IMG/VR virus record: IMGVR_UViG_3300017751_000073
Location: 1-36,360 of that record
From: a virus
DNA length: 36,360 bases
Direction: 5' to 3' (one strand)
Part shown: one piece after another, positions 4,453 to 35,485 of the stretch
Numbering within the stretch: position 1 is the first letter of the stretch
Layout: each line of letters begins with the position of its first letter
Position numbers and translations under genes: made by a program
The notes under the pieces: model-generated
What the model saw: only the letters and a program-made list of their open reading frames with translations
Databases searched by the model: none
Told to the model about the DNA's origin: nothing

Positions 4453-4677
4453 ATGAGAGAAACACATAAAACAAGGTTAATTAAATACCTTAAAAACTAC
4501 GGAAGTATTACATCAATACAAGCAATACAAGACTTGGGTAATACAAGACTTTCAGCAACAATATTTGCGCTTAGAGAGTTGGGTTGGAGTTTTGAAACTG
4601 AAGATATAAAAGTACCTACAAGGTGGGGAAGCACCACAACTGTAACAAAGTATTCTTTAAAAAGTGTTGAGAATTAA
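4453..4677 (+). CDS. Small winged helix-turn-helix DNA-binding protein
   Basis: This 74-residue protein is almost entirely one winged-helix domain: helix KTRLIKYLKNYG, the turn ITSIQAIQDLG, the recognition helix with RLSATIFALRELGW, then a two-strand wing ending TKYSLK. The pattern matches the small phage helix-turn-helix family (HTH_39-like), whose members are assumed to bind DNA. It lies just upstream of the promoter at 4666-4696 that serves the annealing-protein gene, so it may regulate the switch to replication genes. That regulatory target is inference. Confidence 0.75.
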   Translation: MRETHKTRLIKYLKNYGSITSIQAIQDLGNTRLSATIFALRELGWSFETEDIKVPTRWGSTTTVTKYSLKSVEN

Positions 4678-10613: not shown

Positions 10614-10688
10614 TCCCTGTTTATCTCTGCATAGTTGCACTTTAAATAGTGCGTGTAGCCCTTGCATTTGCAGGGGTTACTTTTTTTT
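10614..10688 (+). ncRNA. Candidate small RNA or attenuated leader, about 75 nt
   Basis: A consensus promoter (10579-10608) is followed by two hairpins, GCACT/AGTGC at 10637-10652 and the terminator at 10655-10680 with its T8 tract. Nothing long enough to be a gene lies between. The transcript would either be released as a short structured RNA or act as an attenuator for the phosphoesterase gene. The exact ends are inferred. Confidence 0.55.
10655..10688 (+). terminator. Strong intrinsic terminator before the phosphoesterase gene
   Basis: GTAGCCCTTGCA (10655-10666) pairs with TGCAGGGGTTAC (10669-10680), twelve pairs including two G-U, followed by eight T (10681-10688). It ends transcripts from the promoter at 10579-10608 and probably from the resolvase operon. 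Confidence 0.85.
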
Positions 10689-10698
10689 ATTACCTTTG
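10667..10698 (+). promoter_or_regulatory. Promoter of the phosphoesterase gene, nested in the terminator
   Basis: TTTG (10667-10670), 20 bases, TACCTTTG (10691-10698, exact TAnnTTTG). The -33 element is in the terminator loop and right arm. Only 7 bases separate the box from the ATG at 10706, so the mRNA is leaderless or nearly so. Confidence 0.8.
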
Positions 10699-10705
10699 CT
10701 TTGTT

Positions 10706-11449
10706 ATGGAAAAACAATACCGACCTAGATTATCTCAATTTGAGTGGAGTTTAATTCAAAAATCAAGAGAATCACAATCACCATCCACAGGCAACGTCTT
10801 AGTTGTTGGAGATATTCATGAACCTTTTTGCTTAAAAGGATACCTTGAGCATTGCAAAGAGCAAATGCGAAAGTATCAATGTTCAGAAGTTGTATTTATA
10901 GGAGATGTTATTGATTCTCATTATAGTTCTTTTCACAAACAAGACCCTGACGGTTATGGTGCGGGTGAGGAATTAGATAGAGCAATAGATAAAATACAAA
11001 TGTGGCATAACGCGTTTCCGATAGCAAAAGTTTGCATAGGAAATCACGATGCTATAGTTCGTAGAAAAGCTTTCGATAGCGGAATATCAAAAGTTTGGAT
11101 AAGGGATTTTGACGAGGTTTTAGGTGTAGAAGGGTGGGACTTTAAAGAACATCATCATATAGGAGATGTTTTATATGTTCACGGAACAGGGACTTCAGGC
11201 AGAAACGCTGCAGCTAATAAAGCATTGCAGTTTGGGTGTTCAGTAGTGCAAGGGCACATTCACACTGAGGCCTCAGTAATATATAATGGAAAACATTGGG
11301 GTATGCAAGTAGGTTGTGGTGTAGATAGAAAAAGCTACGCAATGGCATACGCAAAGCACTTCGCAAAATCCTATAAACTTTCTTGTGGAGTAGTTCTTGA
11401 AAATGGAACGCTACCAATGGTTATCCCTTATTTAGAATCAGGAGCGTAA
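10706..11449 (+). CDS. Calcineurin-like metallophosphoesterase
   Basis: From ATG 10706 the protein has 247 residues. A GTG start 57 bases upstream would place codons inside the terminator hairpin and is rejected. All five metal-site blocks are present: GDIHE (35-39), GDVID (66-70), GNHD (112-115), VHG (158-160) and GHIHT (183-187). The family cuts phosphomonoesters or diesters with two metals; in phages some act on nucleic-acid ends or cyclic nucleotides, and the substrate here is unknown. It has its own promoter, is the last gene of the rightward arm, and its 3' end overlaps the convergent late gene by 22 bases. Confidence 0.88.
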   Translation: MEKQYRPRLSQFEWSLIQKSRESQSPSTGNVLVVGDIHEPFCLKGYLEHCKEQMRKYQCSEVVFIGDVIDSHYSSFHKQDPDGYGAGEELDRAIDKIQMWHNAFPIAKVCIGNHDAIVRRKAFDSGISKVWIRDFDEVLGVEGWDFKEHHHIGDVLYVHGTGTSGRNAAANKALQFGCSVVQGHIHTEASVIYNGKHWGMQVGCGVDRKSYAMAYAKHFAKSYKLSCGVVLENGTLPMVIPYLESGA

Positions 11450-11879: not shown

Positions 11880-12281
11880 TTAAATTATAGTTATGTAAAA
11901 TTCTTCAGGAAGAATACTTAACAATTTATCCATAGTATCTCTACTAGATGTAATGTCTATCTCCCCGTCTTTGTCTATATCAGCATAGTTTTTACCAACA
12001 GCTATACAACCTCTAAGTTGATAATGATAGTTTGCACTGTGTATTAAAACGTACTCCCTACCATCTACATCGTTAATTAAAAAATGCTCACCATGTCTTG
12101 CGGAAAATCTTGTCGTTACAACATACTCTCCACGAGGTATGCAAGATACACTTCTTTTGTTATCTTTCCAAGAAAGCTCTAATGTTTTACAAGAAAAGCA
12201 CTCTTTAAGCTCGTCGTGAATAGTGAGCTTCCCTAATGTTGATTTACCTGTATCTACAAGCCTGTTTAATACAACTTTCAT
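11880..12281 (-). CDS. DUF5675-family protein, possible cell-wall enzyme
   Basis: This 133-residue protein matches DUF5675: TLGKLTI, CKTLELSWKDNKRSVSCIPRGEY (29-53; key SCIPRGEY), GREYVLIHSANYH and LRGCIAVG. The invariant His81, followed by Gly-Cys92-Ile, looks like the catalytic HxG...GC pair of YkuD L,D-transpeptidases, and CIPRGEYVV resembles their TPxGxY strand; this similarity is my inference. No lysozyme, amidase or other endolysin is visible in the genome, and this gene sits directly upstream of two small membrane proteins, so a role in lysis is plausible. It overlaps the upstream gene by one base. Confidence 0.75.
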   Translation of the reverse strand: MKVVLNRLVDTGKSTLGKLTIHDELKECFSCKTLELSWKDNKRSVSCIPRGEYVVTTRFSARHGEHFLINDVDGREYVLIHSANYHYQLRGCIAVGKNYADIDKDGEIDITSSRDTMDKLLSILPEEFYITII

Positions 12282-12529
12282 TACTTTGCTCTTCTAACTT
12301 TTTTAGCTAACTTTTTTCCGTAAGGAGCATTTTGTTTTCCCTTTGAAGTAGCCTTCTTCTTCTTCCTGTTCTCAGCAGCTTTTTGAGCAGGTGTAAGAGA
12401 CTCTCTAACACTTTTAGGTAGGTATCTACCTCTTTTAGATTTAGGTTTCTTTTTATCTTTTTTAGAGACATAATCCCAATCTTGTTTAGTCCATTTTTTT
12501 AGACTTTTTTGTGATTTTTTTAGAGCCAT
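12281..12529 (-). CDS. Small very basic protein
   Basis: This is an 82-residue protein, about one third Lys plus Arg, with a conserved-looking core (WTKQDWDYVSKKD, RGRYLPKSVRESLTPAQ). Composition suggests nucleic-acid binding or a virion DNA-associated role. Start and stop are linked to both neighbours by one-base TAATG overlaps. Similar small basic genes are common next to structural genes of marine phages; the function is unknown. Confidence 0.68.
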   Translation of the reverse strand: MALKKSQKSLKKWTKQDWDYVSKKDKKKPKSKRGRYLPKSVRESLTPAQKAAENRKKKKATSKGKQNAPYGKKLAKKVRRAK

Positions 12530-12705
12530 TATTTGTAACCTCCTCCTGCTTTTTTATATTCTCTTGCAAGCATTTGAGCCTTTCTAGCAGACCACTGACC
12601 TGCGCGACCTCCTTTAGAGCCAGACTTTATTTTATTAAATAAACGCTTTCTCATAGTAGGCTTAGTATAGTTTCCTGCTTTATTTACTGTGCTTTTTTTC
12701 TTCAT
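12529..12705 (-). CDS. Small basic protein ending GQWSARKAQ...GGGYK
   Basis: This is a 58-residue protein. I chose ATG 12705 because it forms a TAATG overlap with the upstream stop, whereas the alternative GTG at 12711 lies inside the upstream gene. The end GGRAGQWSARKAQMLAREYK followed by GGGYK matches a family I recall from many marine phages, with no established function. It is strongly basic and probably DNA- or capsid-associated. Confidence 0.72.
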   Translation of the reverse strand: MKKKSTVNKAGNYTKPTMRKRLFNKIKSGSKGGRAGQWSARKAQMLAREYKKAGGGYK

Positions 12706-12995
12706 TACCACTTAACTTTATCAGCCCAATACGCTGCAGACATTTTACCTTTTGCTATATTTTTTGCGTGACGAGCTTTAAATGAAGCTCTTTTCTTTTT
12801 CATTCTATCAGACTCACCTTTTTTTGGCTTTCCTGCCGTACTAGCTCCTTGCTCACCAAACCTAATAGTTTTTACTTTGCCACCTTCTTTTGCTACAACA
12901 ACGTGAGACTTTTTAGGATGACTAGGGGTTCGTTTAGGTTTATTGTAGCCTGAAACACCTGCTCTTTCTAGTCTTGAATCTTTCTTTTTAGCCAT
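12705..12995 (-). CDS. Conserved phage protein with RFGEQGAS and SFKARHAKNI motifs
   Basis: The start at ATG 12995 gives 96 residues; a longer frame to 13079 would run through the end of the upstream gene and is rejected. The motifs SGYNKPKRTPSHPKKSHVVV, RFGEQGAS, SFKARHAKNI and SAAYWADKVKW are typical of a small basic family found beside structural genes in many tailed phages. Its role is unknown; minor virion or DNA-associated functions are guesses. It lies 4 bases after the upstream gene's stop. Confidence 0.75.
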   Translation of the reverse strand: MAKKKDSRLERAGVSGYNKPKRTPSHPKKSHVVVAKEGGKVKTIRFGEQGASTAGKPKKGESDRMKKKRASFKARHAKNIAKGKMSAAYWADKVKW

Positions 12996-12999
12996 AATA

Positions 13000-13725
13000 T
13001 TAAGATGATGTCCAATTATTAGAGTGTCTTGTTGCATAAATAGAAGCTTGAAACAATAAAGTTTCACCACCCGAACCACTATGACCCGTATTTTCTATTA
13101 ACAACCATATAAGTTTACCTTCAGGAACTTTAACTGTTGTTGCAATATCAAAATCATAGCCAGTATCTATAATAGCGCAATCTACTACATCACTGCCAAT
13201 TAAAGTTAAATTTTGAACATAAGTGCTTGTTCCGTCATCTTGGTCTGAATAATACATTTTTATAGTAACATCTCCTGTTGCTGAGGTGTTATGTATAGTT
13301 CCTCTGCAAGATACACCATAAAGCTCAAAAGGAGCTCTAAAAGCGTTAAAGGAGTTCATTGAGGGTAAGTTAGCTAGGTTAGTGGTATAACTTGACATTA
13401 CTGTGTAACCACTTGTACTACTACCGTAATAATATCTACCTGCGGCACCTGTAGCTATCCTAGAGCCTCTATTTCCAACAATAACAAAAGACTTGTCATC
13501 TTTTTGAGTCCTTACAGACTTAACTAAAATATGCAAAAAAGCTCTTAAGTTTTCAGCAGTAATACCACCTTTTACATTTGTTTGAAAATTGTTTTCAATA
13601 AAGTAAAGTAAGTTATCTCTATCTTGTTGCTCATTACCTGTAAGAGCAGCAGAATCATTAGTTCTTCCTTGAGCTAAAAACTTTTGTTTATAACTTGCGG
13701 ATGAGTCATTATAATCTTGAGGCAT
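13000..13725 (-). CDS. Probable virion appendage or tail-fibre-like protein
   Basis: This is a 241-residue protein. The N-terminus (residues about 27-72) has a pattern common to virion-attached phage proteins, EQQDRDNLLYFIENNFQTN followed by GGITAENLRAFLHILVKS, which probably anchors it. The rest is beta-rich, Gly/Ser/Tyr-rich and ends with alternating strands, as in receptor-binding or decoration domains. It begins 2 bases after a 59-aa membrane protein gene. Exact position in the virion is unknown. Confidence 0.65.
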   Translation of the reverse strand: MPQDYNDSSASYKQKFLAQGRTNDSAALTGNEQQDRDNLLYFIENNFQTNVKGGITAENLRAFLHILVKSVRTQKDDKSFVIVGNRGSRIATGAAGRYYYGSSTSGYTVMSSYTTNLANLPSMNSFNAFRAPFELYGVSCRGTIHNTSATGDVTIKMYYSDQDDGTSTYVQNLTLIGSDVVDCAIIDTGYDFDIATTVKVPEGKLIWLLIENTGHSGSGGETLLFQASIYATRHSNNWTSS

Positions 13726-15853: not shown

Positions 15854-16531
15854 TTAAGCGTAAACTACTCTTTTTGGAGCTGTACCTTGAACGGCAGTTA
15901 GCTTTAAAGTAGCTCCATTTTTATCAGTTAACGCAGCTCCTGAGTCATACTCAATAGAGTCTATAAACAAAGCAAAGTCAGAGTATTGAAAGTTCATACC
16001 TGCACCTGTTGCAGCACTACCTTCGTCACCTAAAATTTGGTCTACACCAACTATATATCTAGCTTGTTTTAAATTATTTGAACTTGGCGCTGTTTCATCG
16101 TTAGTGTTATCATCAGTTTCATAAGGGCTAGCTGTTTCAAACTTATCATTCATACAAACCAATCCAACATAAGCAGTCCTTAAACCTGAACTTAACTTAT
16201 TGTAAATGTCTGCAGTTAAATGAGGAACATAAAGCTCTAAAGTTATAACGTGAGTAGGAAAGCCTCTATCTTGATTAACAGAATAAGTCATCTTACTTTT
16301 TTCTCTTTCACACTTTAAAACATATTCCTCTTGCGCCATTCCATAATCTCCAACAGCAGGGTTTAATACAATCGTATTACCAACCGCATAGTTTCCTTGA
16401 AAGTCAGTACCACTATCTTCGTTGTGTCTATCTCCGTTTAGACATAAAACAACCCGCTCAACGCCAGGAACAACATCGTTGTGCATATACACCCCGTGAG
16501 TCCCTTGTAGTATATTAATTTCTCCAATCAT
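15854..16531 (-). CDS. Tail tube-like protein, paralog 2
   Basis: This is a 225-residue, beta-rich acidic protein. It is a paralog of the upstream 182-aa protein: both have a central strand pair (KSKMTYSV; VITLELYVPHLT) and a near-identical C-terminal module (SIEYDSGAALTDKNGATLKL against SLELDSGTSLADANGVTVKI). It is longer by a Thr/Asp/Asn-rich insert near residue 140. The position after the capsid gene and the duplication suggest tube or tube-decoration proteins; a head-decoration role cannot be excluded. Confidence 0.6.
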   Translation of the reverse strand: MIGEINILQGTHGVYMHNDVVPGVERVVLCLNGDRHNEDSGTDFQGNYAVGNTIVLNPAVGDYGMAQEEYVLKCEREKSKMTYSVNQDRGFPTHVITLELYVPHLTADIYNKLSSGLRTAYVGLVCMNDKFETASPYETDDNTNDETAPSSNNLKQARYIVGVDQILGDEGSAATGAGMNFQYSDFALFIDSIEYDSGAALTDKNGATLKLTAVQGTAPKRVVYA

Positions 16532-16556: not shown

Positions 16557-17105
16557 TTAGAACTGAGCAGGGAAATGAGCCATAGTACAGCTAATTTTAA
16601 CAGTTACACCGTTAGCATCAGCTAACGAAGTTCCTGAATCAAGCTCTAAGCTCTCTAAAACACAAGGAAAATCAGTTTCTGAGTTACTCACAGCTAAAGT
16701 ATTATCAAACCCTAATAAATAAGGGTCAAGATTAGCGCCTGTATTTTCACTATAATCATCCCAAAGATATGCTTTTGCGAAAAACCCATTAGGAGCTTTC
16801 ATTACAGACTCTAATGATTTTAGTCTATCTTTAGATAATTTAGGTACAAAACCCTCAACTACAACATTATATAAATTTAATGAGTCTGTTCTTTGTACGG
16901 AAACAGTCATTTTTGCTGACTCTTTTTCAAACTCAAAAGAATGAATTTGACCCGCAGCAGAGCTTAACACCCCCGTTGCAGTTTGAGCATTGTTATCTAC
17001 AGCTAAGGAACAGCCTGTAGCTCCTACCTCAGCTATTTCTAGTAATTTTAAACCACCTTTAGCGAAGTGGTCTATATTTACTACTTCTACACTTTGTATT
17101 GGCAT
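16557..17105 (-). CDS. Tail tube-like protein, paralog 1
   Basis: This is a 182-residue beta-rich protein, first gene after the terminator that follows the capsid gene. The pattern SAKMTVSVQR, YNVVVEGFVPKLSKDRL and SLELDSGTSLADANGV is shared with the next gene. Size, acidity and position are compatible with a major tail tube protein. No direct family recognition from sequence alone; the pair was identified by mutual similarity. Leader before ATG: AAAAATAAGAAAAA. Confidence 0.6.
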   Translation of the reverse strand: MPIQSVEVVNIDHFAKGGLKLLEIAEVGATGCSLAVDNNAQTATGVLSSAAGQIHSFEFEKESAKMTVSVQRTDSLNLYNVVVEGFVPKLSKDRLKSLESVMKAPNGFFAKAYLWDDYSENTGANLDPYLLGFDNTLAVSNSETDFPCVLESLELDSGTSLADANGVTVKISCTMAHFPAQF

Positions 17106-19669: not shown

Positions 19670-22624
19670 TTAAAATCTAACTGATTCTTGTTTTACTTTT
19701 ACTTTATTTTGAGTTTTATTTAAAGACTCAACGGGTAAAACGACATTAGTGTTTCCACCTATAACTTTTCCTAATAAACTGTAATCTATTAGTCCGTTAT
19801 TATTTATATTAGGAGATGAAAAGGAAACTCCACCACCTGCTTGATTCATAGCGCTTAAAGCTCCACCAAACATAGCTGTAGACCTTTTATTTATTACAGC
19901 TTCACCGCCTTCTAGCTCTGCTACACGGCCACCAACCGCAAACATTTCTCCTCCTTGCGCGTGTGACTTACCATAGACTAAACCACCTTTAGCAAACTCT
20001 TGCTTTTCTATAGCAGCTAAATTTGATGCGTATCTAGCCATAGCTAACCCTGACATGATTGCATATTGAGATATGGACGCTCCACCAAAAGTTATACCCG
20101 CTAATGGATTTAATGCAGCGCCTATCGCGTGATTTGCAAGCTCCTGAGCTAAAGATATTCTAAGCATTTTCTTTTCGTGCTCTTTTCTTAAATTAAACTT
20201 TTCTTCCTCTATAGCTTTTTCTTTAGTTTTTAACTCTCTTTGATTTATTAAACCTAAGTCTGCTTGCTCTTGAGCTGCGGTTTGCTCCTTTTCTAAAGCA
20301 TTTTCTTTGTTTGCTAATTGAGTTTCTGCATTAGCTTTTACAGCGTCAGCAATAACATCTAAACTCATTTTAGCATACTTTTCTTTTAATTTATTTTGCT
20401 CTAACTCTCCTGCAGTAACTTCTTTTGCTAACTTTATTCTAACAGCAGCTAAAGCTCTTTCATTTTTTTCTCTTTCATCAGCACTTTGTCCATCCACTTT
20501 TAATAAATCAATATAGTATTGCTCTTGCTCCTCTAATTTATAAATATTTAACTGACGATTTGTTAGCTCATTTTTTTGAGCCTCCTCTAAAGCTATGTCC
20601 TGAAGGTTTTTAGCTAAATCAGTAGACATTTCTGTTTGTGTGTCGTTATATTTTTTAGTATTAGACTCTAATATGGATATTTCTTTTTTTCTAATATCTA
20701 CTCTAAGTTTAGACATCTGCTCTGCAATTCTTGTAAGCTCTCTAGCTGAAGCTCCTCCGTGTTCTTTATGATGATTTTCAAGGGCTTCAAGTTCAGCATA
20801 TTTTGCTTTAGCAATAGCAAGGTTTGTAACATTTTGATATTGGTCGTTTTCAACACCCTCCATCGTTATTTCTTCTATTCTTTCAGCTAAATCTTTTCTT
20901 CCTTGAAACTCTCTTTCATTGTACTTTCTTTTTGATATAGTTTTTGCATTATCTAACTCCTTTTGTTTAGCTGCAGCCGCATCATCTTCCTCTTTTATTT
21001 TATCTAAAGATGCTTTGTAAGATTTAATCATATTAGCTAGCGTAGCGTTAAAGGGAGCTAAATCTTCTTTTGAAGCAACCATTTTCATGAATTTAATATC
21101 TTCAGGAGTAAACCCATCACCTTTAATCATTCTTTCCCTTATTCTTTCCATAGTTTTGACGCCATCTTCAGAAGACTTTAAACCTTCTACAAAGTTTTTT
21201 GCACTTTTTTTAGACGCTTCTGATTGAGCTTCTGCTAGTAAAAGCATATCGTGACCTATTCCTGCATATTTTCCCGCAAACTTTAAGAAAAAACTCTCAA
21301 TTTTATCCATAGTGGATACCTCATCGCTTGATAAAACGTTAAAAAAGTTTGCCACAGCAGTTGCAGCGTTGTCAATAAAATCAGAGTCACCCATAGCAAC
21401 CTTTAATCCTGTATATGCTGTGCTTAGTTTATCAAGACCCATTTGAGATGAATCCATGTTTTCATCTAATGCTTTTTGAAGATTAGCTGCAGTAATAGTT
21501 TCATCGTTCAACTCTTTTAATATCTGTTGGTATTGGTCTGCGTTATCACCTGCTAAAGAAAATATAGCTGTAAGACCACGAACATTTCCAAACATTTGTT
21601 CAATAATTTCTGGACTCTCTTTGTAAACCTTGTTTAATCTACTAAGAGTTTCTGTAAAACCTATTGTCTTCATTTCAGCAGCTCCAATAGGTATCCCATA
21701 CTCTAAGAATAAGTCTCTTGACTCTGCGGCAGGTTTTTGCATTTGAGATATTGCAGCACGAAGAGCTGTAACAGTTTTAGCGGCATCAAGACCTGAACGA
21801 GTAGTAACAGCAATAGATGCGCCGAGCTCTTCTAAAGATATTCCTGATGCAGCAGCAAAAGGAACTACAACCCCTAAAGATTTAGATAATTCCTCTACCG
21901 TTGTAACACCAAACTTTTGAGTTGTAAATAAAATTTGAGAAACTCTAGCTGTTTCTGAAGCTTCCATCCCATAAGCATTTAAAACTGTTGTCAAACCTAA
22001 TGTAGCAGACTTTAAATTAGTAACACCCGCTACAGCTAATGTAGATGCTTCATTTAAAAACTTAATAGCATTACCACCATTAACACCTGCAGATACAGCG
22101 TTAAACATAGCTTTGTTTACATCATCTAAGGCAAATCCAAAATCTCTACTAAGCTGTAAAGAACCTTTAAATAAATCACCTCTAAACAAACCTGTATCAT
22201 CTGCAGACATAAGAGTAGTAACATTCTTTACTCCTTGTTCAAACTTAGCAAATTCCTTAACATTTGATATTAAAAAAGTACCAAGTCTTCTTAAAGCCAT
22301 AACAGCGCCCGCTACGGAAAGACCCATAGCAGCCATAGCTTTTCCTGCAGCCCCTGCGGCTGCGCTATTTTTTTTCTTTGCAGCAGTATTTTGAGTTAAA
22401 GCAGTTATACCCTTTTTAACATGAGAAGTATATACTTTTTGTTGAGCAGTCAACCTTGTGAGTTTATCAGCTTGAGCTGCAGTAGCAGTTGTTTGACCTT
22501 TTATTTTTTTCTTAAGCTTATCAAGTTGGTTGTTTGTTCTTTGTAAACCTTGTTGATATTTTTGCAGCTTAGATACACCTTTTATATCAAACTGAATTGC
22601 GTACTTATCTGTTTTACTAGCCAT
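19670..22624 (-). CDS. Tail tape measure protein
   Basis: This 984-residue protein fits the TP901-type tape measure: an N-terminal coiled coil (residues 1-60), a Gly/Ala-rich helix near 90-115, then the conserved block with SRDFGFALDDVNKAMFNA, GVTTVEELSKSLGVVVPFAA, SLEELGASIAVTTRSGLDA and TALRAAISQM, and a long Glu/Lys/Gln-rich coiled-coil half (about 540-860). By the usual 0.15 nm per residue, the tail would be near 150 nm, so a siphovirus. Hydrophobic stretches late in the protein (near 865-905) are typical. It lies after, not before, the other tail genes on the map. Confidence 0.9.
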   Translation of the reverse strand: MASKTDKYAIQFDIKGVSKLQKYQQGLQRTNNQLDKLKKKIKGQTTATAAQADKLTRLTAQQKVYTSHVKKGITALTQNTAAKKKNSAAAGAAGKAMAAMGLSVAGAVMALRRLGTFLISNVKEFAKFEQGVKNVTTLMSADDTGLFRGDLFKGSLQLSRDFGFALDDVNKAMFNAVSAGVNGGNAIKFLNEASTLAVAGVTNLKSATLGLTTVLNAYGMEASETARVSQILFTTQKFGVTTVEELSKSLGVVVPFAAASGISLEELGASIAVTTRSGLDAAKTVTALRAAISQMQKPAAESRDLFLEYGIPIGAAEMKTIGFTETLSRLNKVYKESPEIIEQMFGNVRGLTAIFSLAGDNADQYQQILKELNDETITAANLQKALDENMDSSQMGLDKLSTAYTGLKVAMGDSDFIDNAATAVANFFNVLSSDEVSTMDKIESFFLKFAGKYAGIGHDMLLLAEAQSEASKKSAKNFVEGLKSSEDGVKTMERIRERMIKGDGFTPEDIKFMKMVASKEDLAPFNATLANMIKSYKASLDKIKEEDDAAAAKQKELDNAKTISKRKYNEREFQGRKDLAERIEEITMEGVENDQYQNVTNLAIAKAKYAELEALENHHKEHGGASARELTRIAEQMSKLRVDIRKKEISILESNTKKYNDTQTEMSTDLAKNLQDIALEEAQKNELTNRQLNIYKLEEQEQYYIDLLKVDGQSADEREKNERALAAVRIKLAKEVTAGELEQNKLKEKYAKMSLDVIADAVKANAETQLANKENALEKEQTAAQEQADLGLINQRELKTKEKAIEEEKFNLRKEHEKKMLRISLAQELANHAIGAALNPLAGITFGGASISQYAIMSGLAMARYASNLAAIEKQEFAKGGLVYGKSHAQGGEMFAVGGRVAELEGGEAVINKRSTAMFGGALSAMNQAGGGVSFSSPNINNNGLIDYSLLGKVIGGNTNVVLPVESLNKTQNKVKVKQESVRF

Positions 22625-22634
22625 TTTAATTTAA

Positions 22635-25600
22635 TTATGAATTAGTTCCTGTTGTTGTCGCTAATATTAGCTCAACTTGTGTAGCCTCCCCTGAAAAGTT
22701 GTAGTCTACAATTCTACTTAATATATAATAATTTCCGTCTATGTGAATTAATTGTCTAAAGTTTATATTAGCAATATCAGTTGGAGTTAAGTGAACCTCT
22801 GCTGTTATTTTTTTATCTCTCAAAAGCATGCTGTCTATAAAAGACTTATGATAAACGTGAAACAGTCCACCCTCAAAAAAGCCTTCATCAGTTAAGCTAC
22901 CATCTAAAGCATCTGAAAAAGTAACGTTAGGAGCTTCAGAGCTGAAAGGAGAATAAGAGGCTACCTCCATGTAATTATCCCTAGATATAGTATAGTGACC
23001 TTTAACTCCAAAAATTCCGTTATCAAACGAGGCGAAAGGATAAAAACGCCTTTCTATTGCCCAATAAATATCTTTTTCTGAAGAAACTGTTTGCCTAGAC
23101 TTGTTTAATATAAACGCTAACTTATGCTGATGAGAATTATTTGGTCTAGGCTTCTCTTCAGGTATTGTAGGCGTTAAAGGGGAGTCGGGCTCGTGCCAAA
23201 TTTTAGGCATAAATGTAGGCACGGGGTTAGGTCTCATGTTCTCGTATGCAGGACTAGATGGCGGTAATGGAGCAAACTCTCTTTGAAGAAAATAATCAAA
23301 ATCCATTTTCATAGCCGAAAATATAGATAGTGATAAATCTTGCCATTTATCCTCTCCGTTTATATTTCTATTTGAGTATATTTTTTTATCACCAAAACCT
23401 CCACCATCAGAGCTAGACATTAAATTGTTAATACACCAATCACTAGAGTCTTCATTCATAGCGTAGAGTAAGTTACCTTTTATAAACCCATTCTCTTCAA
23501 CGTTTACAATTAAAGCTTTTTCATCCCAATCTAAATAACCATAAGTACTTCCATTGAAGTCGTAAAAAGAGTTCAAAGGTTCAACTGTTATTTGTTGAGT
23601 TAACTCATTTGTAGCCCAAACTAAATTAAATATTTTAGATATTTCACTAACAAAATCTAATTGACTTACATCAGGTAAAACCTCTCTATATGATACGGTT
23701 GGACTAACATTATCATATATCATTGCGTAATACCCCTCCATAGGATTTCTATCTTGAGATAAAGACATTATTAAAACTGCTTCATTTATTTTAAACGAAG
23801 TTCCCCAAGACTGTATAGTGCTTACAATGTCTCCACCAACATTGTTCATAAAGTAAGTTCCTTCTCCTGAAGGTATACCTTCCATAGCTAATATAGCGTA
23901 TTCTTTATCTGCGGAAAGGTATTGATTTATCTGCAAAGATATTCTAGTGTTATCATAACTATCTTCACCTAAATTAATTGCAGATTCATCCTTTAAGTCA
24001 AACATTAAAGCAGACAATCTATACTCGTCAATAAACTCATTACTATTACCCATTCCACTACTACCTAGCGTGCTATCAACTAACGCTACTGAAAAAAGTC
24101 TAGGGACAGCATCTGTTCCTTCAGCAGCCATAGTGCTCCAAGTACTGTAGGCAGGAGAAAACATACTACCATTAATATAGGTGTTAAAATCTGCGTTTAC
24201 GTCAATCTGTATTGTGTAAAAACCACTTTGATTAACACTTATTACAGACCTAGATTGACCGTATGGGTCAGTAGAGTTTATTAAAGGGAACGTTTGTTCC
24301 CATACGCCGCCTACAAAACTAGAGCCTGATGTTGTTTGAGTCCCAAGAGTTGAGCCACCACCATTAACGTGGGTTTCATCAAAGTTTAAGAAACACCAAT
24401 CAACATAGTATCTTTGCTCATCACCATTATTAGCCTTTTTCACTATACTTCTCATGCTAGGCCTTAACCCGTTTAAGTTACTTGTATTAGCTTCTTTTAG
24501 TAGTTGAAACATCGACTTCCTAGAATTGTTCATTCTAATGTTTAACTCAGAAACTTTAATATCGTCTTCGTGGGTTTGCATTGTAGGGGCTATACCTATT
24601 AATTTAGAAATAAATCCATTAAATTCAAACCCAAACTCATTACTCCACTCTTGATTAGTTCCAAAAAAATTACTATCTAAAGAGTAATTTATGTTGCTAA
24701 AAATTTCCTCTAACACAAGAAGTATTCTATAAGAGCACTTTATATTTGGCCAACCTGCAGCAACCCTATCAGGATTAACCTCTTCGGAAACTATAATTGG
24801 AGTCCAAGCCCCGTTATCAACTAAGGGAAATTGAAGTTGGTTTTGAGCGTTATCAAAAAGATTTGTATCCCACATACCCATAACTTGATAGTATTCACCT
24901 ATCAAGTCTCTTAAATTTTTATTAGACAGGAAGTCAGCCCAAGAACTGTTTCCACCAACCATAGATAAGTTTAAGTAGTCTTCTCCGTGTTCAGAATACT
25001 CGCTTCCATCATAAAATAATTTACCATTAAACACATCTAAACCATGCGCTCTAACAGTACACTCTAAACCATTTACAAAAGAATTATCTTTTTTTGTGTT
25101 TATTTCATTTTGAAATAATATTGCCCTTTTATTATGAGATGTTGCAGGAACTTGAAGTGTTTTTGTGAAATTACCACTACCTTGACTTAGCTCTTCAAAG
25201 TTTTTATTAATAATATTTAAAGGAAACTCAAAGTCTTCGTCTAAATCTAAATTAATTGTTGTTGACTGAAGACCTGTTGGAAAGGTCGCCTGCATAGCTA
25301 ACTCAGTTATAATTATATCTAAAGGCGTAGTTGAGTCAGGGGAGTGAAAGGTAAACTTAACAGTTGGATTAATAAGAAAGTTTACGTCTAATTCAGTGTT
25401 ACCTGTATTCCTAGTTATTTGAGTAGTTCCTGCAGATGTAATTGTAGTGGTTAAAGGGCTTCCTGAAAAGTTATCTTTAACCTCAAGCTCACAACCCGTT
25501 CCCATACCCCAAACATTTACAAATAACTTAATGCTTCCTGCCCCCACTAATGAAGCCGCACTAAATGATTTTGTCATTATTGGGGCTCCTAAGGTTGTTG

Positions 25601-29810: not shown

Positions 29811-30329
29811 TTAATATCTTTTAAATATTTTACCATCTCCTGTTTTTGAGAAGGTATTTATTGTCATGCTTTGAACTTCATTAAATAAATCCATAGCAAC
29901 ATTATTTCTTAATCTTTTTAATTCTTGTTGTATAACTAAATCAAACCAACCTATCCCGTGTTTATTGTAAGTAGCAAATCCCTCTTGTTGTATTTTTCTA
30001 GCTATTAAATATGCTACTTGCTTTCTTGTTCTTAATTTATACTTAGACTTGCTTCGATTCATTTTTATCCCCTTCTTATCCATCCAAGCTAGTATTAAAT
30101 CTACAGGTGGTAGTTTTGATGGTTTGTAGTTTTTATTTATAAACCAACCATAATTCATCATGCTAATATTTAAACTAGACACGTCTCCTTTATGAGTAAC
30201 TTTTGATTTTATTGATTTTATTAAATTTCCAAAAGCAACATTTTTTCTATTTAACAGCGATTGTTTAAGTTTCGTTGTTAATGCTCCACCATAAGAAGCT
30301 AACCTTTTTTTAAAATTATTATTAGCCAT
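29811..30329 (-). CDS. HK97-gp10-like tail completion / neck protein
   Basis: This is a 172-residue, strongly basic protein. The section LPPVDLILAWMDKKGIK (about 73-89), then RKQVAYLIARKIQQEGFATYNKHGIGW, matches the conserved middle of HK97-gp10-type neck proteins, with the characteristic basic ends. Such proteins join the tail to the head connector. It overlaps the upstream gene by 8 bases. Confidence 0.75.
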   Translation of the reverse strand: MANNNFKKRLASYGGALTTKLKQSLLNRKNVAFGNLIKSIKSKVTHKGDVSSLNISMMNYGWFINKNYKPSKLPPVDLILAWMDKKGIKMNRSKSKYKLRTRKQVAYLIARKIQQEGFATYNKHGIGWFDLVIQQELKRLRNNVAMDLFNEVQSMTINTFSKTGDGKIFKRY

Positions 30330-31596
30330 TAGCTCTTCTATATAAGTACTTATTTATATTTAAACACTCATCTCTTGTTTTTGCCTCACTGTAAAGTATC
30401 ACGTCCTTTAATTCTGCATTTTCCATATAAGTACTACTATACTTTAAAGAGTCACTTACATGAGCAGCACCCATAAGCCACATGTGTCTCATTGACCAAG
30501 TAGAATTATCACAAATATTAATAACTGCTACAGGCTCGTTTCCTAAATGAACAAAAACTTTACCTTCAGATTGATTGTTTACAAAAGTTATAGGAGTAAA
30601 TTCATTATTAATTATTTCCCCTGCGTTTAAAATATTCCCGTTTTCATGTTTTGCAACGTTTTCTTCTGTAACGGCTAAGATACTAGGTTGGCCTTGACCT
30701 GAAGTTGTCATAAAAATTTGATTAGGATATGAAGAGTGGTCTTGACCACAAAGCTGTAGCCTTACAAAAGGGAAGCCTGTGTTAGTATTATAAGTTCCAC
30801 CTTCAATTATTTTAGCTGTACTAAAGAAAGTAGAAAGCCCATTAGTTAAATCTCTTTTAATCAACATGGAAATAGTCCAATCAGTTCCACCAAAACTTAC
30901 ATCTTTAATTTCTAAAGTTGCAGCGTGATTAAACTGACCATACGCAGGCTCAAAAATAAAAGAATCTGAAACAGTTGAATAAGCTGTAAATACTTCATCG
31001 TCTTCTAAAGTAGAACTCTTTATAGATGTAAAGCCTGTCTTGCTGCCTGAGTGCATGTCCCATGTGACTCCATGAGTAACGCTTAAAGTTACACCATTAC
31101 TAGAATCGTAAAAAGCATATAGGTTTGAAGAATCCAATGTTATTGAGCCACTAGAACCAATAACAACAGAGGGTACGAGCATTTCAAATTCTATTTTACA
31201 ACCATAACTTGAGTCATTACCAAACTTTTGTATTCTTCCAATATCTATCGAGTCTTTTATAAGTATATAACTTCCATCCCTTTGCGCCATAAGTTCAGAA
31301 AGCCAAGAATCAAACAGGCTTAAACAATGGTCGTAAAGTTCAGCTTGATTATCTAATTTTGTTAATTCTTGCTTGAGTATAAACGCAACAATCTCAAACT
31401 TTTCCATACCCCTGTTTACATTCTCTATTGATGAGTTTGGTATTTCAGTAATAATAGTAGGGTAGTTTATATTTTTAAGACTATTTATTTCTGATTCATA
31501 CAAAACGTGATGAGAATTTAAATCATCAACATTATTTTGCGCAGCCCCAAAAGAGTCTGTTAGGTTTTTTAAAGTTTTATAATTAGAGTAACTCAT
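30322..31596 (-). CDS. Tail terminator-like protein fused to a LamG/ConA-like domain
   Basis: This is a 424-residue protein. Residues about 40-150 read like a tail terminator of Bacteroidota siphophages (FEIVAFILKQELTKL, YDHCLSLFDSWLSEL, YGCKIEFEMLVPS). From about 155 on, the sequence is a beta sandwich of LamG/concanavalin A type (SSNLYAFYDSSNGVT, ATLEIKDVSFGGTDWTISML, MENAELKDVILYSEAKTRDE). It probably displays a carbohydrate-binding domain at the head-tail junction. Start is 4 bases after the -1-frame end of the chaperone gene. Confidence 0.68.
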   Translation of the reverse strand: MSYSNYKTLKNLTDSFGAAQNNVDDLNSHHVLYESEINSLKNINYPTIITEIPNSSIENVNRGMEKFEIVAFILKQELTKLDNQAELYDHCLSLFDSWLSELMAQRDGSYILIKDSIDIGRIQKFGNDSSYGCKIEFEMLVPSVVIGSSGSITLDSSNLYAFYDSSNGVTLSVTHGVTWDMHSGSKTGFTSIKSSTLEDDEVFTAYSTVSDSFIFEPAYGQFNHAATLEIKDVSFGGTDWTISMLIKRDLTNGLSTFFSTAKIIEGGTYNTNTGFPFVRLQLCGQDHSSYPNQIFMTTSGQGQPSILAVTEENVAKHENGNILNAGEIINNEFTPITFVNNQSEGKVFVHLGNEPVAVINICDNSTWSMRHMWLMGAAHVSDSLKYSSTYMENAELKDVILYSEAKTRDECLNINKYLYRRANG

Positions 31597-31600
31597 TGTG

Positions 31601-32433
31601 TTATTTTTTTTCGTGTCTTAATTCTTGAATCTGACATTCGTAATTACTTCTAGCCGACAAAAACGCAAGATATGTAATAACTTCTCCCGTATTTGTGAGT
31701 AAAACACTATTAATCGGAGTTTCGTTAGGGTTATTAAATAACTTAGATTCTGCCATTTCATATACCGTCTTAAGCCAACCAAATTGTAAAAAATTCTTTT
31801 CATAAACGGCATTTTCTGAACTCTTTCCTCGTTTACATGGTTTAGGTACGCTACGCTGTAAATCTGAAACTTTTTGAGCAAAAAAAAACTAAAGTTCGCG
31901 CCAATAGTCATTGGTATGCCTTCAAACTTAACAGCTAACTTGTCTCTTTCTTTTTGATTCCACTCTTTCCCATTGTCAACTTGATGAGCTAGTTGATGCG
32001 CTAAATATATGACAGAGTTTTTATCTGTATATTTTGAGTTCATTTCAGCTTGAAGGGCTTCAACGTATTGACCAAATTTAGTTTGCAGTCTTAAATTTTC
32101 AGGAATTTTATATGTAACACCTTCAAATTCAAAAGACTTCATTTCTTCAGGTTTATAATTTTTTTCTAAAAACTTTAATTTGCTTACATAATCTTTAACA
32201 AACCCAATATCTAAAGCGTAAACCTCTTCCTCTGTTAATCCTGAAAAAGATTTACATATTTCAAAGTTTAGTGTAACTTCAGCGATAGAAGCTTTAGAAA
32301 GAGCTTCTTCTGATTCATCTAAATTTTCAAGAGCTTCATTAAAATCACATACAGCTTTGTTGTAATTAGAAAATGTAGCAAGAGTTACATCTTCCCAAGA
32401 CTCAGGTATTTGTATTCCTTTTAATTTTTTCAT
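31601..32433 (-). CDS. Tail assembly chaperone-like protein, made by -1 frameshift (or disrupted by an indel)
   Basis: From ATG 32433 the zero frame gives 184 residues to a T9 run, e.g. ESWEDVTLATFSNYNKAV near the start and FEFEGVTYKIPENLRL in the middle, then continues 87 more codons to a stop at 31618. Those 87 residues (LLKKFQIYSV onward) look like a shadow frame, rich in Leu/Ile/Arg. Slipping back one base in the run gives AQKVSDLQRSVPKPCKRG, FLQFGWLKTVYEMAESKLFN, INSVLLTNTGEVITYLAF and a stop at 31601, 4 bases before the next ATG: a 277-residue product with natural composition. Chaperones of the G/GT type use such shifts. An assembly error in the homopolymer is the alternative. Confidence 0.68.
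31880..31888 (-). other. T9 slippery site in the chaperone gene
   Basis: On the minus strand nine T follow AG and precede GCTC. In the zero frame they read as (AG)T TTT TTT TT(G), so the canonical slippery heptamer T TTT TTT is in the correct phase for a -1 slip. RNA polymerase slippage on the same run would have a similar effect. Confidence 0.7.
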
Positions 32434-32442
32434 ATTCTTTGT

Positions 32443-33909
32443 TTATCTAAATGCAGTTATTCGTTTTCCTTTTCCGTATAAGTCTAAAGCAATTTGCAAA
32501 CAATCAACCATGTCATCATGTCGAGCATTAGGAAATTGAGCGCATTGTGCTAAAAAGTTATCATTCCACTTTCCCTCAATTAAAGTTACTCTTTTTGCTT
32601 CGATAACACTTACAATGTCAGAAACTCTTGCAACTTTATCTTTCGAGGGTGGTTTTGATTCGATTATATTTAATCTTGTGTTTCTTCTTAAAGTTTGAAC
32701 TATAGACTTACCGCTAGCTTTTGGTTCTACATATATTTTAGAACGCCTGTTATATCCATTTCTTTCACAAAACGTATATATATATTTAATTAATTCAGGA
32801 AACTCTAAGTATTTTTCTTCTACAGCTCTTATGTAATATTCTCCTTCGTACTCTGAATAACATAAAAGAGCTGAAGGGTCATTGTTTTCTTTCGATGTAT
32901 AAGCGGGGTCTATTACAAAATTCCACGTCATATACTGATAATTTTCAGGAAGCCTTTTTTCTACATTAAACCACTCCTTTTTAATTACACCTCCATCCGC
33001 AGGCGCAGGAACTTGTTGTAACTGACCTGCATATTCATAACTACCTAATTGATACTTGTAGTCTTGTAGTATTTTTCTTGAAAACCTTGTATCCCAAAAC
33101 AAGTCGTTTTTATAGAATTTAAGGAGTCCTTTAGGACTCAAAGCTTTTGAGTTCTCAGCAGGTATGCAAACGTGCTTGTAAGAGTCAGGATTATTTCTTA
33201 AAAGGTATCCACTTAAGTCATCCTCGTGAAGTCTTTGCATAATAATTATACGAACACCTGTTCTTGGGTTGTCTAAACGAGAGTAAAGCGTAGTGTTATA
33301 CCAATCATTTGCGTGAGTCCTTTCTGCTTGAGATGCAGCTTGTTTTGGAGATATAGGGTCATCAACTATTATTATAGATGCACCCGCCCCCGTAACAGTA
33401 CCTCCGACAGATGTTGCTCTTCGATTTCCTGTGTGGTCATTAACGTAGTGGTGTTTAGTGTTTTGGTCAGCTTTAATTTTAAATAAATCTCCCCAATTAC
33501 TTTGAAACCACTCACTTTGTATAACATCTCTTGACTTAGCACTATGCTCAACACTTAATGAAGCCGAGTATGATGCTGTTATGAATCTCATTTTAGGGTC
33601 TTTAATCCAACACCAAACAGGAAACAAAATTGTGCACATAAGAGATTTAGATGCACGAAAGGGTACATTAATAATTAAATCCTTTGTTTTAGGTTTATCT
33701 TCTATTATTCTTTCAGCTTCTTTCTGCAATAATTGACATATATATTTATGATGCCAATTAATATCTAATTCCACTGCAGGTTCAACAACCTTAAACGCTT
33801 CTTTAAAAAACTCAAAGTAAGACATCTCACAAAGCTTGCGTTTTAAAGCATCCTTCATGGAGTTGCTTAGTTGCTCATGCTCAACAGTATCATTAGACTT
33901 TTTGCCCAT
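32443..33909 (-). CDS. terL: Terminase large subunit
   Basis: This 488-residue protein has both terminase halves. ATPase: Walker A-like VPFRASKS (82-89), Walker B IIIVDDP (179-185), and the motif IIIMQRLHEDDLSG (221-234). Nuclease (RNase H fold): D334 in FVIDPAYT, E395 in YVEPKASGKS, and the D465/D466 pair in ARHDDMVD. It packages DNA into the prohead and cuts concatemers. It follows a 94-aa gene with one base between them, and precedes the chaperone gene by 9 bases. Confidence 0.93.
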   Translation of the reverse strand: MGKKSNDTVEHEQLSNSMKDALKRKLCEMSYFEFFKEAFKVVEPAVELDINWHHKYICQLLQKEAERIIEDKPKTKDLIINVPFRASKSLMCTILFPVWCWIKDPKMRFITASYSASLSVEHSAKSRDVIQSEWFQSNWGDLFKIKADQNTKHHYVNDHTGNRRATSVGGTVTGAGASIIIVDDPISPKQAASQAERTHANDWYNTTLYSRLDNPRTGVRIIIMQRLHEDDLSGYLLRNNPDSYKHVCIPAENSKALSPKGLLKFYKNDLFWDTRFSRKILQDYKYQLGSYEYAGQLQQVPAPADGGVIKKEWFNVEKRLPENYQYMTWNFVIDPAYTSKENNDPSALLCYSEYEGEYYIRAVEEKYLEFPELIKYIYTFCERNGYNRRSKIYVEPKASGKSIVQTLRRNTRLNIIESKPPSKDKVARVSDIVSVIEAKRVTLIEGKWNDNFLAQCAQFPNARHDDMVDCLQIALDLYGKGKRITAFR

Positions 33910-34720: not shown

Positions 34721-34999
34721 CTATTTTTTTCCTCTATTTCTAGCTCTATTCTTAGAAGCTTTTTCTTTTACCAATTTACCTTTTTTCGTATGTGACATGT
34801 CCATACCATCTTTATTACCATAAGTCCCTGCTTTTCTGTTGGCTTTATTTAATTCTGAACGATATTTCTTAGCTTTAGCTGTTTTATTGTATTTTTTCTG
34901 ATAATCAGCCTTTTTCTTTTTTGCTTTAGGGTTTGATGCGTAATATTTCGCACTCTTACTTTTTCCTGTACTTTTGCCTGCTAATGTATTTCGCGCCAT
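34721..34999 (-). CDS. Very basic conserved phage protein, first gene of the late operon
   Basis: This 92-residue protein is about 40 percent Lys/Arg. Its pattern STGKSKSAKYYASNPKAKKK, KYNKTAKAKKYRSELNKANR and GNKDGMDMSH matches a family of small phage proteins beside terminase genes that I recall as uncharacterised (a role in packaging or DNA condensation is often assumed). It is first in the leftward operon, 12 bases after the expected transcription start. Confidence 0.72.
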   Translation of the reverse strand: MARNTLAGKSTGKSKSAKYYASNPKAKKKKADYQKKYNKTAKAKKYRSELNKANRKAGTYGNKDGMDMSHTKKGKLVKEKASKNRARNRGKK

Positions 35000-35427: not shown

Positions 35428-35449
35428 GGTATGCGGTGCATAACAAAAA
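35428..35449. repeat. Dyad repeat 3: TATGCGGTGCATAACAAA
   Basis: TATGC-GGT-GCATA (35430-35442) followed by ACAAAAA. Copies 1 and 3 also share AATGG before the dyad. It ends about 37 bases before the -33 of early promoter 2. Confidence 0.8.
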
Positions 35450-35485
35450 AAAACCTGTAAAATATAGCAAAGTTATTGCAATTTA

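Follow-up and report, generated by a model that had tools for sequence, protein, structure and literature searches.

We suggest that the gene immediately downstream of the terminase gene in a virus record of 36,360 bases (the window, by which we mean this whole stretch of DNA; G+C 34%) is very probably decoded by programmed -1 slippage on nine consecutive T's, giving two products with alternative C-termini that would have roles like those of lambda gpG and gpGT, with probable dual coding behind the run and with RNA polymerase as the favoured slipping enzyme. The anatomy of the DNA and its conservation are directly observed: the run is invariant, two frames are open behind it, and both are conserved. 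From these we infer the occurrence of the slip itself. Unslipped expression would yield a common domain of 184 residues followed by a basic tail of 87 residues, and the slipped fraction would carry the same domain joined to a different, conserved helical tail of 93 residues. The virion genes of the window lie on its minus strand, with terminase, portal, maturation protease and tape measure identified by profiles, and the features that matter here are as follows.

31880 to 31888, minus strand: slippery run of nine T's (T9) in the register AGT TTT TTT TTG, containing T_TTT_TTT.
31618 to 32433, minus strand: zero-frame open reading frame of 271 aa (common domain plus zero-frame tail; stop at 31618-31620), with homologs along its entire length.
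31882 to 32433, minus strand: N-terminal domain of 184 aa common to both products, from alignments and a profile match to the P12024-like group described below.
31889 to 31891, minus strand: TAG stop of the -1 frame, which lies directly against the run with zero bases between.
31604 to 31882, minus strand: -1-frame tail of 93 aa, all-helical in the model; stop at 31601-31603.
31621 to 31881, minus strand: zero-frame tail of 87 codons, with a basic pI of 10.5 and an overlap that covers almost all of the -1 tail; the evidence is openness, conservation, synonymous rates (weak in the window's clade) and charge.
32443 to 33909, minus strand: terminase large subunit, the gene immediately upstream, from a profile match.
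30322 to 31596, minus strand: next downstream gene, 424 aa, with its ATG at 31596, 4 bases past the -1 stop; no family match.
19670 to 22624, minus strand: tape measure protein gene, from a profile match; the expected partner if the slip gene is a G/GT-like chaperone.

On the minus strand the sequence around 31880-31888 reads AAC TTT AGT TTT TTT TTG CTC. Because the TAG of the -1 frame abuts the run, the -1 tail of the window has no way of joining the common domain before the run, giving a fusion product of 277 aa beside the zero-frame product of 271 aa. Internal initiation was considered and rejected, for the whole -1 tail of the window since no start lies upstream of the run (where the TAG abuts it), and at starts deeper inside the tail since the conserved beginning would be lost. 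The coordinates given in a preliminary description of this site all check (T9 at 31880-31888, 87 zero-frame codons, products of 271 and 277 aa, a 4-base gap to the next gene); its proposal of a T9 slip into the -1 frame is supported by conservation of the run and of the open -1 tail among relatives, as is its reading of two products of nearly equal length, in a layout unusual beside lambda G/GT. Elsewhere in the 36,360 bases, A/T runs of nine or more occur only at 149-157 and 35445-35453, both between likely genes.

Homologs were found through protein patterns drawn mostly from elsewhere in the protein, not through the DNA run. A terminase search gave 12 viral contigs (terminase identity 60-90%), all of which encode the same domain near downstream of terminase, with exactly T9 in the same register and a -1 tail open for 91-101 codons. 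Alignment searches enlarged the window's family to 94 records (76 distinct by tail sequence); each has T9, or in four cases T10, always in frame as xxT TTT TTT TTR. The -1 frame spans 91-108 codons in all but four of them, three of which (L095, L106 and L116) run off their stretches. The fourth, L112, has a -1 frame of 385 codons (around position 4567 and downstream) where about 96 is usual, which could reflect a fusion of the tail with the next gene or a stop that was lost or misread. Searches of viral contigs and phage isolates with a single protein, either that of the window or that of a short-tailed relative, returned nothing useful, and the relatives were reached through the terminase, the alignments and a fold search. 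Bacterial genomes yielded zero relatives with either domain, and searches of the family against Pfam, PHROGs and PDB sequences gave chance-level matches only. One terminase relative, Croceibacter phage P2559Y (L014), has an A10 run at 11040-11049 within a gene (10647-11390) just upstream of its tape measure gene; no long alternative frame was seen there, and the -1 frame is short, so that slippage would truncate the product.

The fold search, run with the AlphaFold model of the zero-frame form (mean pLDDT 81.7), led to a protein of 175 aa from the cultured Nonlabens phage P12024S, equal in length to gp38 of that phage. The gp38 gene comes after terminase and holds a T9 in the register CTT TTT TTT TAT (23578-23586, within 23136-23830 of the record), which joins gp38 to a -1 frame containing gp39, annotated as a separate gene. 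Judging by this layout, gp38 and gp39, deposited as two genes, look like one slip-decoded gene; in PHROGs, too, the product of this cultured member is split between two families of unknown function, phrog_32199 and phrog_38404. Scanning with gp38 retrieved 63 records, of which L152 is 99% identical, and all 62 records of this second group that contain the site carry T9 (61) or T10 (1); both cultured phages, P12024S and P12024L, carry T9. Profile comparison with hhalign matches the window's family to the P12024-like group in the common domain (97.3%, E 2.8e-11) and also in the -1 tail (96.6%, E 5.4e-10), from which we take the two groups to be homologous in both parts. When three isolate records were searched with a profile of the -1 tail, the result was empty even for P12024S, where profile-profile comparison shows the tail to be present, so we take this search as uninformative.

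Taken together, the window, the 94 records of its family and the 62 of the second group make 157 viral records, with T9 in 152, T10 in five and never fewer T's, so that a conserved A/T run of about nine or more stands at the frame transition in 157/157 and the -1 tail is present throughout both groups. The run reaches nine in two codon registers, 1+6+2 and 2+6+1 (2+6+2 in L117-L120); the register is locked within each of the two homologous groups, and T_TTT_TTT is present in both. Judged over these alignments, conservation of the run at a homologous place exceeds chance. These counts also dispose of the earlier suggestion that the assembly had lost one T: T9 or T10 is found in all 157 records, cultured phage genomes included. 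That the true run is T10, with the -1 frame as sole product of a misassembled or decayed gene, is hardly credible. Homopolymers are error-prone and the -1 tail is indeed conserved throughout, yet 94 related records carry T9 or T10 in an identical register, T9 is found in cultured P12024S and P12024L, and a decayed gene would not keep long zero frames open.

What becomes of the zero frame behind the run differs between relatives. In most of the window's family it ends 22-46 codons past the run, which would correspond to the classic layout, whereas in the clade that includes the window (the LONG clade, support 100/99) it runs for 71-94 codons. Both the site and the -1 tail are conserved, but in the window's clade the first frame has a far later end, and since it extends across the -1 tail there, the stretch is probably dual-coding, with isoform ends of similar length. 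The preliminary description took the zero frame to look like a shadow frame, a view that is not supported. Homologs matching the zero-frame tail, which it had named as a refuting result, did turn up (at up to 56% identity and over nearly all 271 aa), and they match the -1 tail too, so both frames look real. The feature first described is real and unusual, with its zero frame undervalued: that frame is held open non-randomly, and in the clade the conservation of its residues exceeds the null, which is not so in early-stopping relatives.

Openness was longer than synonymous resampling of the -1 tail predicts (with genome codon usage) in all 11 clade genomes tested, with a per-genome chance of 0-0.0085; shuffling within sequences gave a per-genome chance of 0.0005-0.041. 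Per 80 tail codons the LONG clade has 0-1 stops in the zero frame vs 9-14 in the third frame, and short-tailed relatives have 4-10 in the zero frame. At the level of residues, a stop-blind test with a null calibrated on the N-domain gave a mean BLOSUM score of 1.53 vs 1.04 for the null over zero-frame codons 25-81 of the LONG clade (33/36 pairs above null), and no excess over the same codons in short-tailed relatives (1.31 vs 1.33), which do show one in the first 24 codons, where their zero frame codes. Third-frame similarity is likewise raised in the LONG clade, an effect that any overlapping constraint would have. A stop-blind test matched for nucleotide change gave z* of 3.6 for the zero frame and -1.1 for the third frame, pooled values that draw on related pairs and are not probabilities; over four phylogenetically disjoint pairs the zero frame was not separated from the third frame. 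In the window's clade the basic character of the zero-frame tail (31621-31881) holds throughout (charge +7 to +17, to which base composition may contribute), compared with a near-neutral overlapping -1 tail.

Synonymous change in the -1 frame was measured relative to the N-domain in disjoint close pairs. P12024-like records (L179-L213) have zero tails of 79-84 codons over a 92-codon -1 tail, and there synonymous change is strongly depressed, with a ratio of 0.12 in codons 1-20 and 0.33 (95% 0.23-0.44) in codons 21-77. Relatives with zero tails of 35-46 codons give 0.37-0.41 inside the overlap and 0.97 beyond it, and those with tails of up to 25 codons give 0.46 inside and 0.70 beyond. The window's clade, represented by three pairs only, gives 0.23 in codons 1-24 and 0.59 (0.24-0.99) in codons 25-81. 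A frame-specific replacement test in the second lineage gave no support for dual coding. On synonymous rates, the evidence for dual coding is firm for the second lineage and, close to the run, for every group; for the far overlap in the window's own clade it gives weaker support. Selection appears to maintain both tails in the window's branch, each being read from one DNA stretch in its own frame. The long zero tails of the two lineages also differ in character, being strongly basic in the window's clade and, by eye, not obviously so in P12024-like records, which suggests separate origins and does not prove them.

We consider it unlikely that the zero-frame tail has no protein function of its own and that the frame is held open so that unslipped ribosomes reach the next gene (through coupling or mRNA protection). 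Such a reading would fit with stop avoidance being the strongest signal, with a zero-frame stop that usually lies 10-71 bases before the -1 stop and so near the next gene, and with change-matched tests that are modest in the window's clade and negative in the second lineage. It sits poorly, however, with the stop-blind test, in which zero-frame residues of the clade are conserved well beyond the null, and with the low synonymous change throughout the second lineage's long overlap, and most relatives manage without a long zero frame.

With regard to how the frame would be changed, RNA polymerase would add one U at T9, and we slightly favour this over ribosomal -1 slippage on T_TTT_TTT, because the run is never shorter than nine, nine is reached in two registers, and RNA structure beside the run went undetected. 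No stimulatory structure was seen in 25 records (folding z averaged about +0.4 on the downstream side and -0.3 on the upstream side, with pseudoknots outside the model). Slippage by bacterial polymerases is known on nine consecutive A's or T's (PMC5009743, PMC1088944). At the same time, dual amino-acid constraints could hold the outer T's, so that run length alone is no proof of polymerase slippage. It is quite possible, though we lean against it, that the same programmed -1 event is purely ribosomal, with two tRNA-Phe slipping in tandem on T_TTT_TTT and the T's beyond the heptamer persisting solely through the amino acids that each frame requires. The heptamer is found in both registers, P2-like phage tail genes are described as having ribosomal slip sites of the form T6G, T7G and T7C (PMC3931495), and tail frameshifts of the lambda type are ribosomal (PMC5009743); but every record has at least nine T's, reached in two registers, downstream structure is lacking, and in E. 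coli U_UUU_UUU is a weaker site than A_AAA_AAG (PMC5009743).

A G/GT-like role of the product is likely, in view of its two-product architecture, a gene matching tail completion/Neck1 that neighbours it in one relative (L174), the tape measure gene of the window, and two weak fold matches (E 0.034 and 0.56) to proteins that bear the name tail assembly chaperone. On the model of lambda gpG/gpGT, coating of the tape measure protein would fall to the zero-frame form, and recruitment of the tail tube subunit to the -1 form. This chaperone function is proposed as an analogy: given the position after terminase and the lack of family matches, we say only that the gene would work like G/GT, and claim no membership among the G/GT chaperones. 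Known chaperone families were unmatched in Pfam, PHROG and PDB sequence searches, and PDB fold searches with both models gave low-scoring helical matches only, which we take as uninformative. It is less probable, although by no means negligible, that the product is some other assembly factor made in two forms. The gene does follow terminase instead of lying between tail tube and tape measure genes, with the tape measure about 9 kb further downstream, and no match of weight came from Pfam, PHROG or PDB; against this stand the same two-product architecture as in G/GT, the tail completion/Neck1 match beside the gene in L174, and the weak fold matches to two named tail assembly chaperones. Elsewhere in the window, 15854-16531 and 16557-17105 encode adjacent proteins with similar motifs (FEKESAKMTVSV and EREKSKMTYSV), judged by eye and without family match to be possibly duplicated tail tube proteins, and 12281-13079 and 34721-34999 encode several short, very lysine-rich predicted proteins (60-124 aa).

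The gpG/gpGT pair of lambda exemplifies the frameshift that dsDNA phages conserve in their tail genes (Xu, Hendrix and Duda 2004, as cited in PMC5009743), and the present gene resembles it in its -1 slip, in an N-terminal domain shared by both products and in a further domain that the slipped product alone carries, all from a single gene. It differs in the 87 zero-frame codons past the slip in the window, in the T9 site, in its place after terminase and in the lack of a sequence match; slip and stop lie on average 26 nt apart in SEA-PHAGES data, against 36 nt for the Xu set (PMC10885494). The E/E+E' genes of P2 (PMC3931495) share the T-run slippery site, the setting in a phage tail gene and the -1 direction, but their runs are T6-T7, and E' reaches back only 37 nt into E. 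In P12024S the homologous common domain and -1 tail (by profile comparison), the nearness to terminase and the T9 are shared, whereas the zero tail has 25 codons, the register is CTT TTT TTT TAT, and two genes were deposited. Programmed transcriptional realignment at A9/T9, as in Thermus dnaX, IS elements and Shigella type III secretion genes (PMC5009743, PMC1088944), also involves a run of nine, needs no structure and gives alternative products. Here, in contrast, the setting is phage assembly, each of the alternative ends is long as well as conserved, and slippage is deduced from DNA. This arrangement was undescribed in the literature searched, which mostly did not extend to subscription journals; what appears new is programmed slippage in phage assembly genes with alternative C-termini from one probably dual-coded stretch.

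These observations would extend the G/GT theme to a family whose one cultured member PHROG holds as two unlinked unknowns, and describe a slip-decoded gene whose two ends would be alternatives and not a short and a long form. They also offer a signature for annotation, namely T9 or T10 in a gene soon after terminase and, behind the run, a -1 frame that encodes a GW...Y..A motif. More tentatively, and with somewhat less than even confidence, we propose that a widespread aquatic phage family sets the ratio of its tail-assembly isoforms by RNA-polymerase rather than ribosomal slippage on an invariant T9, that the zero frame was overprinted at least twice over the greater part of the -1 domain, and that one added mRNA nucleotide may swap functional C-terminal domains of similar length. 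With P12024S and P12024L in culture, the use of polymerase slippage by phages in virion assembly would be directly testable.
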